A stretch of 64,000 nucleotides of DNA from Armatimonadota bacterium (GTDB lineage Bacteria; Armatimonadota; Fimbriimonadia; Fimbriimonadales; Fimbriimonadaceae). Positions 26,472-31,527 of the stretch are shown in pieces. The stretch spans positions 404-64,403 of the forward strand of contig JAFDWR010000004.1 in assembly GCA_018268355.1 (NCBI GenBank), given 5' to 3'. How positions within the stretch are numbered: position 1 is the first letter of the stretch; each line of letters starts with the position of its first letter. The position numbers and the translations under genes are program-made. Under the pieces are notes generated by a model. The model made no database searches, was not told where the DNA came from, and worked only from the letters and a program-made list of their open reading frames with translations.

Positions 26472-27599
26472 CTAGGAGTTTCGCCTCCAGATGATGATGC
26501 AACTGACGATAAGGCCGATCACGAGGGGCGTGAACGAGGCCACAAAAGCGGGAATCGCTCCGTTCATCGCAAAGGTGTTCAGCGTGTTCGCGAGCATGAT
26601 GTAAAGGAAGCTGATCCCAACACTGATCGCGAATCCCGATGCCGTCCCGGTTCGGCGATTCTGGATGCCGAGGGGCGCCCCGAGGAGGCCGAAGATCACC
26701 GCCGCGAGGGGCAATCCGATCTTGTTCCAATAGCCAAATTCGTAGTTGGCGATCTTGTCGCGGCGCGGGTTCTCGGCGGCCTTTTCTTTTTCGATCTCGC
26801 GTTTGATTTCGCTCATGGAAAAGACGTCGAGATTGCTCACCTTGTCGGTCAAAAGCGCTTCGGCACTAACGTTCGGTCGCGGAAAGTCGCTCGGCCAGAC
26901 GTCGCCATCGACTTGGATGTACTTCGACCCGTCGCGCGAGGTGATCGTCGCGCCGCCCACGATGCGCCAGCCCTGACCCTTGGCGATCAGTTGCGGTTCA
27001 ATCTGCATCGCGACGGCGGTGAGGTACTGCTCGACGCGCCCATCGGCATTGAAGAGCTGGATCGTCGCCTCGCGAAGGGTGCGGGTCTCGAGGTTCAGGT
27101 CGCGGGCAGTGAGAATCCCGCGCAGCTTGCCCCTCTCTTCGAGCGGGTAGCCCACCACGCGCTGGAGGTTGCCCTTGAGGTTTCGCTCGATCTTCGATTG
27201 CAGCCGGAGGGTCTCCATCGACGCCCGGGGAACCCAAATCTCGTTGATTGCAAAGGCAGCAACCGCGACGGCAAGGGCAAAAATCGCGACCGGCACCATG
27301 ATCCTGAACAGGCTCACGCCCGCCGCACGCACCGCGATGATCTCACTATCCGAACTCAGCCGACCAAACGCGAGCAGCCCCGCCAGGAGCATGGCCATCG
27401 CGAACGTCTTAACCATCACGCCGGGAAGGTTCAGCCCTAAAAAGAGCAGAACCGTCATCGGGTTGAGGCCCTGGCTCAGGTAGTCGCTGATTCGGCCGAG
27501 AAAGGTCGCCGCCACGATGAGCAGGGTGTACATGACGACCCCGAACACCCAAGGTCCAAACAGCTCTCGAAAGATCAGGGCATCCAGCCGGCGGAGCAT
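26472..27599 (-). CDS. lptF: LPS export ABC permease LptF/LptG family
   Basis: 375 residues, YjgP/YjgQ family. It opens with MLRRLDALIFRELFGPWVFG, has three N-terminal membrane helices, a large periplasmic beta-jellyroll (~130-265) and three C-terminal helices (YWNKIGLPLAAVIFGLLGAPLGI). It pairs with LptB to lift lipopolysaccharide from the inner membrane into the LptC/LptA bridge. Only one such permease is in the window: it may form a homodimer, as suggested for cyanobacteria, or the partner lies elsewhere. The start shares a base with the lptB stop (TAATG). Confidence 0.9.
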   Translation of the reverse strand: MLRRLDALIFRELFGPWVFGVVMYTLLIVAATFLGRISDYLSQGLNPMTVLLFLGLNLPGVMVKTFAMAMLLAGLLAFGRLSSDSEIIAVRAAGVSLFRIMVPVAIFALAVAVAAFAINEIWVPRASMETLRLQSKIERNLKGNLQRVVGYPLEERGKLRGILTARDLNLETRTLREATIQLFNADGRVEQYLTAVAMQIEPQLIAKGQGWRIVGGATITSRDGSKYIQVDGDVWPSDFPRPNVSAEALLTDKVSNLDVFSMSEIKREIEKEKAAENPRRDKIANYEFGYWNKIGLPLAAVIFGLLGAPLGIQNRRTGTASGFAISVGISFLYIMLANTLNTFAMNGAIPAFVASFTPLVIGLIVSCIIIWRRNS

Positions 27600-28378
27600 T
27601 ACTCGGTGAGGTCCTCCGGATCGCTGTCCACAAGGCGCTCGCGCACCTCGGCCAGCGGATCGAGGCTGAAGCTCTCGCCAAGGTAGTACTTGCGCACAAG
27701 GGCGTTGCTCGCGATCTCGCGCGATGACCCTTCGGCAAAGATCTCGCCATCGTTGATGATGAAGTTGTAGTCCGTGATGCGGAGGGTCGCGCCGACGTTG
27801 TGGTCGGTGACGAGGATGCCGATCCCGCGGTCGCGAAGGGTGAGGAGGATGGACTGAATCTCCTCAATCGTCTTCGGGTCGATGCCCGCGAATGGCTCGT
27901 CAAGCAGGATGAACTTCGGGTCGCACGCGAGGGCGCGCGCGATCTCGACGCGCCTTCGCTCACCGCCGGAAAGCACGTTGCCCGTGCTGTCGAGGATCTT
28001 CGTGATGTGGAGCTCTTCGGCAAGCTGCTGGACCCGCTCCTCGCGCTGGGCCTTGGGCACCTTGCGGAGCTCAAGGACGAGGCGCAGGTTGTCGCGCACA
28101 GAAAGCCGCCGGAAGACGCTCGCCTCTTGCGGCAGGTAGCCAATTCCCGCCCGGGCGCGCTTATACATCGGCCACGCGGTGACCTCTTCGTCGCCCAAGA
28201 AAACCTTGCCCGCGTTGGGCCGGACGAGGCCAACCGTCATATAAAACGTCGTCGTCTTTCCCGCGCCGTTGGGTCCCAGAAGGCCGACAATTTCGCCCTG
28301 GTCCATCTGGAACGTCACCCCGCGGACGACCTTTCGGCCGCGATAGGCCTTTTCGAGTCCCACGCCGCGAATCTTCAT
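27599..28378 (-). CDS. lptB: LPS export ABC ATPase LptB
   Basis: 259 residues. Walker A is GPNGAGKTT (35-43), Q-loop YLPQE (82-86), signature LSGGERRR (136-143), Walker B FILLDEPFAGIDP (156-168) and H-loop VTDHNV. The LptB-specific FAGIDP and the neighbouring LptF, OstA-like and LptC genes fix the role as the cytoplasmic motor of lipopolysaccharide export. The start overlaps the OstA-like gene's stop by 4 nt. Confidence 0.95.
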   Translation of the reverse strand: MKIRGVGLEKAYRGRKVVRGVTFQMDQGEIVGLLGPNGAGKTTTFYMTVGLVRPNAGKVFLGDEEVTAWPMYKRARAGIGYLPQEASVFRRLSVRDNLRLVLELRKVPKAQREERVQQLAEELHITKILDSTGNVLSGGERRRVEIARALACDPKFILLDEPFAGIDPKTIEEIQSILLTLRDRGIGILVTDHNVGATLRITDYNFIINDGEIFAEGSSREIASNALVRKYYLGESFSLDPLAEVRERLVDSDPEDLTE

Positions 28379-29250
28379 CGATCACCTCCGCCTGCGTTCA
28401 GGACCGCGTTGATGGGACTGCCCTTCACCTCGATTTTCAGAACCCGATTGTCGGGGGCAAACCAAACCGTCGCCTGGTCCGCGTTGACGGTTCCGTTGAG
28501 CCCGACCGCGTTGCCCGTGATGATCACCTTGCCGCGAATCTGGGCGGTCTTGTTGTTCGGGTCGCGGAAGTTCAGGTCGGCCTCGTTCGCCTTGAAGTCG
28601 TAAACCTGATGGTCGGGGCCTTTCGGGGTGACCTTGTCGATCTCAATGTGGATATGGACCGAGTTTCGCAGCTCCGCCCATTGGACGACGTCCTTGGCGT
28701 TGCCGAGGGCGACCTCGAGGATGGACCGACCGGCTTCAAACAGCGTCCGGACGTTCGATGGAGTGCCTGGCTGGGCGGCATCGACCAAGGTGAACGACTG
28801 AGTGAAGGTCATCGGCGAGGGCAGCTCAAATTTGCCCCTTTCCGGTTCGCCCGTGTAGACCCCGCGCTCGGTTTTGAGTTCAAACTTGGCATCCTTGATC
28901 CCCGAGGTGTCGGGGAGAAGGGTTGGCCCGCCGTCTGTGATCGGGACCGCCTTGTTCTGGTCGCCGGTGATGACCAGGCCGCCTTCGAGGAGGGCAGTCT
29001 TGAGGAATGTCTTGGGTCCCACTGTCCCCGTCGTCCCCGAGAGCTTGGGGCACCGCATCTCGGTGCCGTAGTTCGGCAATTCGATGATCACCGGCTTTCC
29101 GTTGCCAGAAAACGTCATGCCTCCCGGCGTGAAGGTCGCCTCAGAGGTGTCGAAGTTGCGAAGGACAAAGTCGCCGTTCGGCGACCGGAAAAACACCTTG
29201 CCCTGGGCAGCCAGGAGGGCGGACGCCAAAAGTGCGCTCACGATCCCCAC
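28375..29250 (-). CDS. OstA/LptA-like periplasmic protein (second copy)
   Basis: 291 residues with a signal-like N-terminus (MGIVSALLASALLAAQG). The segment YDFKANEADLNFRDPNNKTA, then RGKVIITGNAVGLNGTVNADQATVWF, follows the repeating beta-strand pattern of LptA/OstA jellyroll proteins. With its neighbour it could form part of the periplasmic LPS bridge. It overlaps the preceding OstA-like gene by 13 nt. Being longer than typical LptA (~185), it may contain more than one jellyroll. Confidence 0.7.
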   Translation of the reverse strand: MGIVSALLASALLAAQGKVFFRSPNGDFVLRNFDTSEATFTPGGMTFSGNGKPVIIELPNYGTEMRCPKLSGTTGTVGPKTFLKTALLEGGLVITGDQNKAVPITDGGPTLLPDTSGIKDAKFELKTERGVYTGEPERGKFELPSPMTFTQSFTLVDAAQPGTPSNVRTLFEAGRSILEVALGNAKDVVQWAELRNSVHIHIEIDKVTPKGPDHQVYDFKANEADLNFRDPNNKTAQIRGKVIITGNAVGLNGTVNADQATVWFAPDNRVLKIEVKGSPINAVLNAGGGDR

Positions 29251-29918
29251 CTCAGCGAGGCCAGCTGTCCCTTACTATCTAACTCAATCCGCACTTCGCT
29301 CACATTGTCCAAAGTTCCAAACGGAACACCGCCTCCGCCCGTTCCGGAGCCACGAACCTTCACCCCGCCGCTGAGCCGGATCGAGCGACCCTGGTTGCTC
29401 ACGTCGAGCCGTTGACCCGTCGCGATCAGGTTGCCGCTCTTCTGGATCATGTTGATCCGAACGCCGCCGCTCAGCTCGGCCCGGACGAGGCCGGATTGAC
29501 CGAGCAAGGCTTGTCCCGACGAGCCGGTGACGGTCGCCGTCGTCGCTCCCCTTGAGTTGATCGTCACCCCGCCCCGCATCTGCACATCGTACTGCCCACC
29601 CGAGCGCTTGACGGTCGCCGAACCACAGTTCAGCCGAACCATTGACCCTTGATTCATCGAAACCCCGCCGGTGGCGACCATGTTTTCGATCACCTGGCCC
29701 TTGCCTTCACGCCGAACCACGCCCGTCATCGACGAGGCATTCAGCCCGAGGTCGTCCTTCGACGAAACCACTTTGACCGCCCCTTTTAGCTCAAACTTCA
29801 GCCGATCTTGGCCGAGCACGGATGCCGCCCCGCCATTCGCCTGGAGCGTGATCGAGCGGTCCGGGCTTTCATAGCGAAAGACTGATTGGGCGAGCAGAAG
29901 CGCGGTAATGAGGCTCAT
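29238..29918 (-). CDS. OstA/LptA-like periplasmic protein (first copy)
   Basis: About 226 residues with a very short signal-like start (MSLITALLLAQS). The repeated strand pattern (LKFELKGAVKVVSSKDDLGL, NMVATGGVSMNQGSMVRLNC, ISRGGV-type turns, ATGQRLDVSNQGRSIRLSGG) is typical of LptA/OstA. ATG 29918 is chosen because it overlaps the lptC stop by 4 nt; the upstream extension is the lptC gene in another frame. It should receive LPS from LptC. Confidence 0.72.
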   Translation of the reverse strand: MSLITALLLAQSVFRYESPDRSITLQANGGAASVLGQDRLKFELKGAVKVVSSKDDLGLNASSMTGVVRREGKGQVIENMVATGGVSMNQGSMVRLNCGSATVKRSGGQYDVQMRGGVTINSRGATTATVTGSSGQALLGQSGLVRAELSGGVRINMIQKSGNLIATGQRLDVSNQGRSIRLSGGVKVRGSGTGGGGVPFGTLDNVSEVRIELDSKGQLASLRWGS

Positions 29919-30445
29919 CGCACCCCCTGAAAGAGGTTCGGCGTGGCAACCCGCTTGAGGTCGCGGCTGGCCCAAAGCTCGTCCATCGGGCCGACCTTCC
30001 CGTTCGGGCCCGTCCAATAGACCTTGCCCCTTGCCTTGATGATCTCGTCCTTGGCTGCGTAATCCATCTCTTCACAGGTCAGCGTATCGGGGGTCGCCTT
30101 TGAAGTGACCTTCACCTGACCCTTCACCTTCATCGTCTTCTCGAGTTGATTGAGTACGCCTTCCGAGGCTGCAAAAGTGGCCGAGACCTTCCCGTCCTCA
30201 AACAGCTCGCCCGTGATTCCGCGCACCTTTGCCATCCCCCCTTTCTTGGACGGATCAATCTCAAGGTCAGCTTCTGTCCAGTGAACGGTGTACTGCACCT
30301 CGCGGGTGGCCGACTTTTCGTTGCGCGCCGTGAAGCTGCCCGATTGGACGGTGACGTCCTGCCGAGGGAACGGCGACTCGCTCGCCTTGGCGGAGGCCGC
30401 GCGGCGCCCCTTTCCGCAACCACCCAGCCCGACGATGGCCACCAT
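29915..30445 (-). CDS. lptC: LPS export periplasmic protein LptC (lipoprotein-like)
   Basis: Conservatively started at ATG 30445, which overlaps the rlmN stop as TGATG; 176 residues. The strand pattern REVQYTVHWTEADLEIDP, then VRGITGELFEDGKVSATFAA, matches LptC/OstA-type jellyroll proteins. The N-terminus reads IVGLGGC, a lipobox, but a start here lacks a positive N-region. In the same frame, an ATC at 30475 lies 5 nt after a perfect AAGGAGG (30488-30482) and would give a full lipoprotein signal NRAAVGLVLMVAIVGLGGC. The true start may therefore be the rare codon AUC (see findings). Confidence 0.75.
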   Translation of the reverse strand: MVAIVGLGGCGKGRRAASAKASESPFPRQDVTVQSGSFTARNEKSATREVQYTVHWTEADLEIDPSKKGGMAKVRGITGELFEDGKVSATFAASEGVLNQLEKTMKVKGQVKVTSKATPDTLTCEEMDYAAKDEIIKARGKVYWTGPNGKVGPMDELWASRDLKRVATPNLFQGVR

Positions 30446-31527
30446 CAAGACGAGGCCAACGGCAGCGCGGTTGATCCGGCCCTCCTTGAAAATCGACCCG
30501 TGTGTTGACCCGCCAGCTGACCACAGGCAGCGGCGATATCGTGGCCGCGCTCCACGCGCTCGGTGGTGTTCACCCCTGCCGCCTCCAGGATTCGCCGGAA
30601 CGACCGCACGCGGTCACGGCTGGGACGCGAGAAGCCGTGGCCGGTGTCCACCCAGTTGAAGGGAATCAGGTTCACGACGCACGGGATGCCCTTGAGCAGC
30701 GGGACGAGGGCACGCGCCTGTTCGGGGGTGTCGTTCACCTCGTTGATGAGCAGGTATTCGAAGGTCGCCTTGCGGCCGGTCTTGTTCGAATAGTCGCGCA
30801 TCGCGCCGATGACTTCGCGCACGGGCCACTTGTGGTTCACCGGCATGAGCTTGTCGCGGACCTCGTCGAACGGGCTGTGGAGGCTGAGCGCCAGGTGGAT
30901 CGGCAGGCCTTCTTCGGCGAGTTGTCGAATCTGGGGCACGAGGCCCACCGTGCTGACCGTCAGGTGGCGGTAGCTCATGCCCACCTCGTCGTGGAGCAGG
31001 CGCATCGCCTTCAGCACGTTCGGCAGGTTGAGGAGCGGCTCGCCCATCCCCATGAAGACGACGTGGGAAATTCGGCGCTCGGTGAGTTTTTGAAGGGCAA
31101 GGACTTGGCCCACGATCTCGCCCGCATCGAGGTTGCGGTCAAAGCCGCCCATGCCCGTCGCGCAGAACGTGCAGCCCATCGGACAGCCAACCTGGGAGCT
31201 GATGCAGCAGGAAACCCGCTTATCGTAGGGCAGCAGGACGCACTCCACCACTTGGCCGTCGCCTCGGTGGACCAGGAGCTTGTCGACGCCGTCGGTGCTG
31301 CGGCGGTGGCTTGCGATGATGAGTGGGTTGACGCTCGTGGTCTGGGCAAGCTCCTCGCGGAGGCTGAGGGGCAGGTCGCCCATCGCCTCAAGATCGCTTT
31401 CCGCCCGCCGGTAGAGGTGAAAGGCGAGCTGCTTGGCTCGGAGCTTGGCGTCCGACCGCGGCTGAAGGAAGGCTTCTAACTCCTCGCGCGATTTGCCGAC
31501 AAGGCTGGGCATCGGCTGGACGGTCAC
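30445..31527 (-). CDS. rlmN: Dual-specificity 23S rRNA/tRNA adenine C2-methyltransferase RlmN
   Basis: 360 residues, radical SAM. The iron-sulfur motif CPMGCTFC gives Cys115, 119 and 122. GMGEPLLNLPNV binds SAM. A C-terminal Cys335 in DIAAACGQL is the methyl-carrying cysteine. It methylates A2503 of 23S rRNA and A37 of some tRNAs. A TACAAT box ends 6 nt before the GTG at 31527, suggesting a leaderless mRNA; an internal ATG at 31512 lacks a Shine-Dalgarno. It heads the LPS-export operon. Confidence 0.94.
   Translation of the reverse strand: MTVQPMPSLVGKSREELEAFLQPRSDAKLRAKQLAFHLYRRAESDLEAMGDLPLSLREELAQTTSVNPLIIASHRRSTDGVDKLLVHRGDGQVVECVLLPYDKRVSCCISSQVGCPMGCTFCATGMGGFDRNLDAGEIVGQVLALQKLTERRISHVVFMGMGEPLLNLPNVLKAMRLLHDEVGMSYRHLTVSTVGLVPQIRQLAEEGLPIHLALSLHSPFDEVRDKLMPVNHKWPVREVIGAMRDYSNKTGRKATFEYLLINEVNDTPEQARALVPLLKGIPCVVNLIPFNWVDTGHGFSRPSRDRVRSFRRILEAAGVNTTERVERGHDIAAACGQLAGQHTGRFSRRAGSTALPLASS

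Follow-up and report, generated by a model that had tools for sequence, protein, structure and literature searches.

An apparent AUC start codon of lptC, conserved in Fimbriimonadaceae and associated with the overlap with rlmN

In an Armatimonadota genome, lptC very probably starts at an AUC codon that lies inside the 3′ end of rlmN, as judged from the 64-kb window of contig JAFDWR010000004.1 (the window being the whole stretch of DNA analysed here) and from the corresponding loci of related genomes. Comparative sequence analysis indicates that this AUC start is old, extends through Fimbriimonadaceae as a family and is linked to the overlap with rlmN. Only a small number of noncanonical start codons have been well characterised in bacteria, and most of the known ones are regulatory; lptC, a gene of the LPS-export system, presents a family-wide noncanonical start for which the comparison suggests a coding constraint imposed by the overlapping gene. 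The locus also provides a natural experiment, in which AUH codons (AUU, AUA or AUC), NTG codons (ATG, GTG or TTG) in place and NTGA at the rlmN stop replace one another at the lptC start. The explanation as a whole, that is, an AUC start with a strong Shine-Dalgarno sequence (SD), an initiator tRNA with a CAU anticodon and the overlap as the likely reason, appears very likely to us.

The rlmN-lptC junction and its translational context

The window belongs to a genome of 2.7 Mb in seven contigs, the sole member of its genus. The last 31 nt of rlmN overlap lptC (Table 1), whose frame reads INRAAVGLVLMVAIVGLGGC... from the ATC codon and comprises 186 codons; the product matches PF06835 (LptC) with an E value of 9.5e-7 and 29 bits, the curated cut-off being 21. 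The gene lies in an lptA/lptB/lptFG-type neighbourhood, near an lptB-like ABC ATPase (27599-28378; Pfam ABC_tran) and an LptF/G-like permease (26472-27599; judged from translation only). Downstream genes of the operon are joined by ordinary overlaps (ATGA at 29918 and GTGA near 29241; window positions 29238-29250 and 29915-29918), unlike the rlmN/lptC junction.

Table 1. Features of the rlmN-lptC junction in the window
Feature	Position	Strand	Basis
rlmN (23S rRNA/tRNA methyltransferase RlmN)	30445..31527	-	Pfam Radical_SAM 7.8e-19, RlmN_N 1.1e-7; translation
Shine-Dalgarno AAGGAGG	30481..30487	-	sequence; conserved across overlap loci
Putative AUC start codon of lptC	30473..30475	-	ATC/ATT conservation in family; ATG or TTG in place in two
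lptC CDS, 186 aa, stop 29917-29915	29915..30475	-	PF06835 LptC; translation
Predicted lipoprotein signal peptide (M)NRAAVGLVLMVAIVGLGG and lipobox Cys TGC 30418-30416	30416..30475	-	translation; R/K/H pattern
rlmN/lptC overlap, phase 2	30445..30475	-	RlmN reads GGA TCA (Gly-Ser) across AUC
TTG (30448) and ATG (30445) at rlmN stop	30443..30448	-	standard starts judged unused; not conserved

The original prediction placed a perfect AAGGAGG 5 nt before ATC 30475. The motif and its spacing are borne out, the spacer being GCCGG at 30480-30476 on the minus strand, whereas the motif coordinates, given as 30488-30482, were one base off and are correctly 30487-30481. Translation of the minus strand from ATC yields (M)NRAAVGLVLMVAIVGLGGC; the Cys codon lies at 30418-30416. 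It was also rightly stated that TTG 30448 and ATG 30445 are the sole standard starts: they are the first ATG, GTG or TTG past the in-frame stop at 30616. Both are very short alternatives, which would leave only 9-10 residues ahead of the lipobox Cys. The rlmN stop itself (TGA 30447-30445) is arranged as TGATG.

Taken alone, AAGGAGG says little, since it occurs 15 times in the 64-kb window against 8.3 expected. Its position is more informative: within a 464-kb sample of the same genome, an SD match of at least 7 nt stands at any ATG, GTG or TTG near the start of only 7 of 446 genes, and AUH codons with an SD of at least 6 nt and no better NTG are found essentially at lptC and infC only. Widespread AUH initiation in this genome was rejected on the basis of that sample. 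The use of SDs is weak overall: in 243 of the 446 sampled genes, none of the standard start codons near the beginning of the gene has a match of at least four bases. A 16S gene was searched for and not found in the assembly, so that the genome's own anti-SD is unseen; among seven complete relatives searched, six carry CCTCCTT in the expected context. The one initiator-like tRNA found has a CAU anticodon, which argues against a dedicated AUC-reading initiator with a GAU anticodon. A search for special mRNA structure at the lptC start revealed none beyond shuffles (z = 0.31).

Within this context, AAGGAGG would position AUC in the P site of the ribosome, where the ordinary CAU initiator would begin with fMet despite the mismatch at the third base, the strong SD compensating for the weak start codon. 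The predicted product is a lipoprotein precursor, (M)NRAAVGLVLMVAIVGLGG followed by the lipobox C. By analogy with other AUH genes, reduced initiation of lptC and sensitivity to IF3 would be expected.

Conservation of the start codon among relatives

lptC was found in 82 of the 85 genomes of the family, and its 5′ end is readable at 79 loci, whose start states were classified with sequence rules and by inspection, partly by eye. The codon homologous to the ATC of the window is ATC at 49 of the 79 loci (22 genera) and ATT at five; together these 54 loci span 23 genera, and each ATC or ATT is preceded by an SD-like purine run at usable spacing. Comparison of upstream regions in relatives, which the original prediction had proposed as a check, thus favours AUC; in two genomes, ATG or TTG occupies the position of this codon. 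Both occur in one genus, g22, in which ATC (G021), ATG (G070) and TTG (G073) all stand behind the same AAAGGAGTC. The codon is therefore conserved as an apparent start and is exchangeable in place with AUG and UUG. At the other family loci, the lptC NTG is fused to the rlmN stop as NTGA (nine genomes), or lptC is detached or spaced from the end of rlmN and apparently starts at NTG (twelve genomes); one further locus is truncated, and one (G001) is ambiguous, since SD and ATC are kept, yet a plausible GTGA start is also present. A G/C read error at 30473, which had been raised as a possible artefact, is excluded by the presence of ATC in independent genomes of 22 genera.

The neighbouring family f5 has ATC (G032, G036), ATA (G030, G038) or TTG (G034) at this codon. 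In families f2-f4, the RlmN tail differs wherever one is visible, and most lptC starts have a standard appearance, although some could not be placed. It appears that the AUC start has been kept since at least the family ancestor and, as f5 has AUC and AUA, probably since earlier. In G038, the apparent ATA start overlaps the rlmN stop as ATAA, and G030 also apparently uses AUA. Two family genomes of 1.5 Mb (G081 and G082; 97% complete) have rlmN and infC, and lptC was not detected in them. It should be noted that JADZEW010000016.1, titled Methanoregulaceae archaeon, has the same rlmN-lptC sequence as a family member (G011), and its title looks wrong.

The extent to which RlmN coding could produce this pattern was assessed by a null model in which the RlmN protein was held fixed and synonymous codons were resampled at 55 overlap loci. 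An AUH codon is present at the site in 53 of 55 loci against 4.5 expected, an SD of at least 6 nt in 45 against 2.9, and the AUH and SD signals together in 50 against 1.8; with one genome per genus, the figures are 23 of 23 against 1.7. At 54 of the 55 loci, the wobble position ahead of TC holds A, a base that makes up 13% of RlmN third bases, and AGG, which accounts for 7.8% of RlmN Arg codons, is nonetheless the codon seen most often at both SD positions. Conservation at the AUC site far exceeds what RlmN coding explains.

The overlap with rlmN and competing readings

The lptC start lies in phase 2 of rlmN: its first base occupies the wobble position of one RlmN codon, and its second and third bases open the codon that follows. 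For overlaps of this phase in general, Sabath et al. (2008, PMC2542354) noted that an NTG start obliges the upstream gene to read TGN, which encodes Cys or Trp or is a stop. AUG, GUG and UUG would therefore each put TGN into RlmN, whereas AUC puts UCN (Ser). Indeed, the RlmN residue over the start codon is Ser at 48 of the 55 loci, Leu at the five with ATT and Trp at the two with ATG or TTG, these two being the genomes in which Trp is tolerated in the RlmN tail; in f5, the locus with TTG in place has Cys in RlmN. Neither Cys nor Trp was found in the 936 residues of 75 other RlmN tails. Among 21 loci without the phase-2 overlap, none has AUH and all apparently start at NTG. The L-x-[VL] pattern of the RlmN tail also occurs in several genomes without overlap, which suggests that it belongs to RlmN itself instead of arising solely from the lptC signal peptide. 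At least nine interchanges between AUH and NTG are seen on the RlmN tree. Only three independent contrasts lie on well-supported branches; nearly all of them point the way expected, but so small a number gives no statistical power. For this reason, we regard the overlap, on correlational grounds, as the probable reason for AUC and go no further. We also asked whether the codon arose from ATGA by a single substitution to ATCA, but abandoned the idea because the RlmN tail is of similar length in NTGA genomes.

The most serious competitor accepts AUC as the start and holds that it has been kept for low LptC synthesis under IF3 control. AUH and GTC starts are described as repressed by IF3, and noncanonical codons as lowering yield, in the available text of PMC5472188 and PMC13009471, and infC of Fimbriimonadaceae also apparently starts at AUA. 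However, the complete lack of AUH among the 21 detached or NTGA lptC genes is not what a dosage requirement would lead one to expect, and a strong SD acts in the opposite direction. We consider this reading unlikely, though it deserves more weight than any of those below.

Far less probable is initiation of lptC at ATG 30445, or at TTG 30448, through termination-reinitiation at the rlmN stop. The TGATG arrangement makes a coupled start physically possible in the window's genome, nine other family genomes have NTG fused to the rlmN stop, and translational coupling is described as common in overlapping pairs (PMC10666635, available text). However, this alternative, which the original prediction had also named, does not fare well among relatives. 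ATG 30445 is not conserved, NTGA is absent from many AUH genomes, and the SD, missing as a conserved element from NTGA genomes, is retained in AUH genomes. Reinitiation would also yield signal peptides that are too short in most genomes: 38 of the 54 AUH relatives would keep fewer than 14 residues before the Cys, and 15 of the 54 have no ATG, GTG or TTG between AUH and the lipobox Cys. In eight of the 54, there is no such codon anywhere from the upstream in-frame stop to the lipobox. When translated from AUH, LptC has 15-19 residues before the Cys in most of the 54 genomes and an acidic residue there in only one, and R, K or H occurs among residues 2-5 in 51, in agreement with the predicted lipoprotein signal with a positive N-region. 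A downstream standard start is thus unlikely, and initiation at AUC remains the preferred reading.

Two further proposals can be set aside with near certainty. The ATC could be an internal or chance codon, kept because RlmN needs Ser and Arg-Arg; it does lie inside conserved rlmN coding sequence, with Ser over it at most overlap loci, but the resampling expectations given above for AUH and for both signals fall far short of the observed counts, A is nearly invariant at the wobble position before TC, and Ser gives way to Trp at the loci with ATG or TTG. Equally implausible is a frameshift product of rlmN, stimulated by AGGAGG in the manner of prfB or dnaX. Although an SD-like stretch lies inside rlmN near its end and lptC is in another frame of the same mRNA, the lipoprotein signal would be buried in a fusion to RlmN, inspection of the alignments by eye shows no conserved slippery sequence, in-frame stops lie 2-5 codons upstream of ATC in G099 (a TAG two codons upstream), G050 and G057, and frameshifting does not predict a codon limited to ATC, ATT, ATG or TTG.

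Other noncanonical starts in the lineage and elsewhere

According to the available text of three papers (PMC5472188, PMC13009471, PMC13068326), known AUH or GTC starts include those of infC, pcnB, sigR, cvfC1, ccpN and Listeria rnhC; they are often paired with strong SDs and show lower expression or a response to IF3 where measured. One close likeness to lptC is infC, encoding IF3, which has an AUH start (AUU, AUA or AUC) behind an SD, the Streptomyces gene being described as starting at ATC in the available part of PMC5472188. However, infC uses AUH for autoregulation, whereas lptC is an envelope gene whose AUH start tracks gene overlap. Streptomyces sigR resembles lptC in having a noncanonical start that is conserved within a group and misannotated by gene finders; it differs in that the codon is GTC, repression by IF3 was shown experimentally and no overlap constraint is reported in the available text (PMC5472188). 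Likewise, cvfC1 (AUU) and ccpN (AUA) of S. aureus combine a conserved AUH codon with a strong extended SD, but they were demonstrated by profiling and reporters and are not described as overlap-driven in the available part of PMC13009471. The experimentally confirmed ATC start of Listeria rnhC, cited in PMC13068326, is an ATC start in another gene and phylum, with no link to overlap in the available text. The rule of Sabath et al. (PMC2542354) covers ATG, GTG and TTG only, and here the barrier is apparently passed by AUH. Within partial literature coverage, no paper was found on a noncanonical lptC start or on any noncanonical start explained by gene overlap.

It is possible, and we suggest it tentatively, that phase-2 overlap selects AUH more generally. 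The AUC of lptC would then have been held since at least the family ancestor because NTG would corrupt RlmN, other long phase-2 overlaps may hide misannotated AUH starts, and lptC output would be tied to IF3. This leads to a testable rule for errors of gene finders, which consider ATG, GTG and TTG only: a long phase-2 overlap, a strong SD and no good NTG.

AUH initiation is plausible in this lineage because infC apparently starts at ATA in the readable family members and in the window's genome, and at ATC in genus g19. The infC start (for example, G000:C1:279084-280269, minus strand) lies behind a GAGGTGA-type SD, and automatic annotation will probably miss it. A lipA-like gene (L153:9263, minus strand), with AAGGAGG 8 nt before ATA and an ATG without an SD eight codons further on, is possibly another case of an AUH start.
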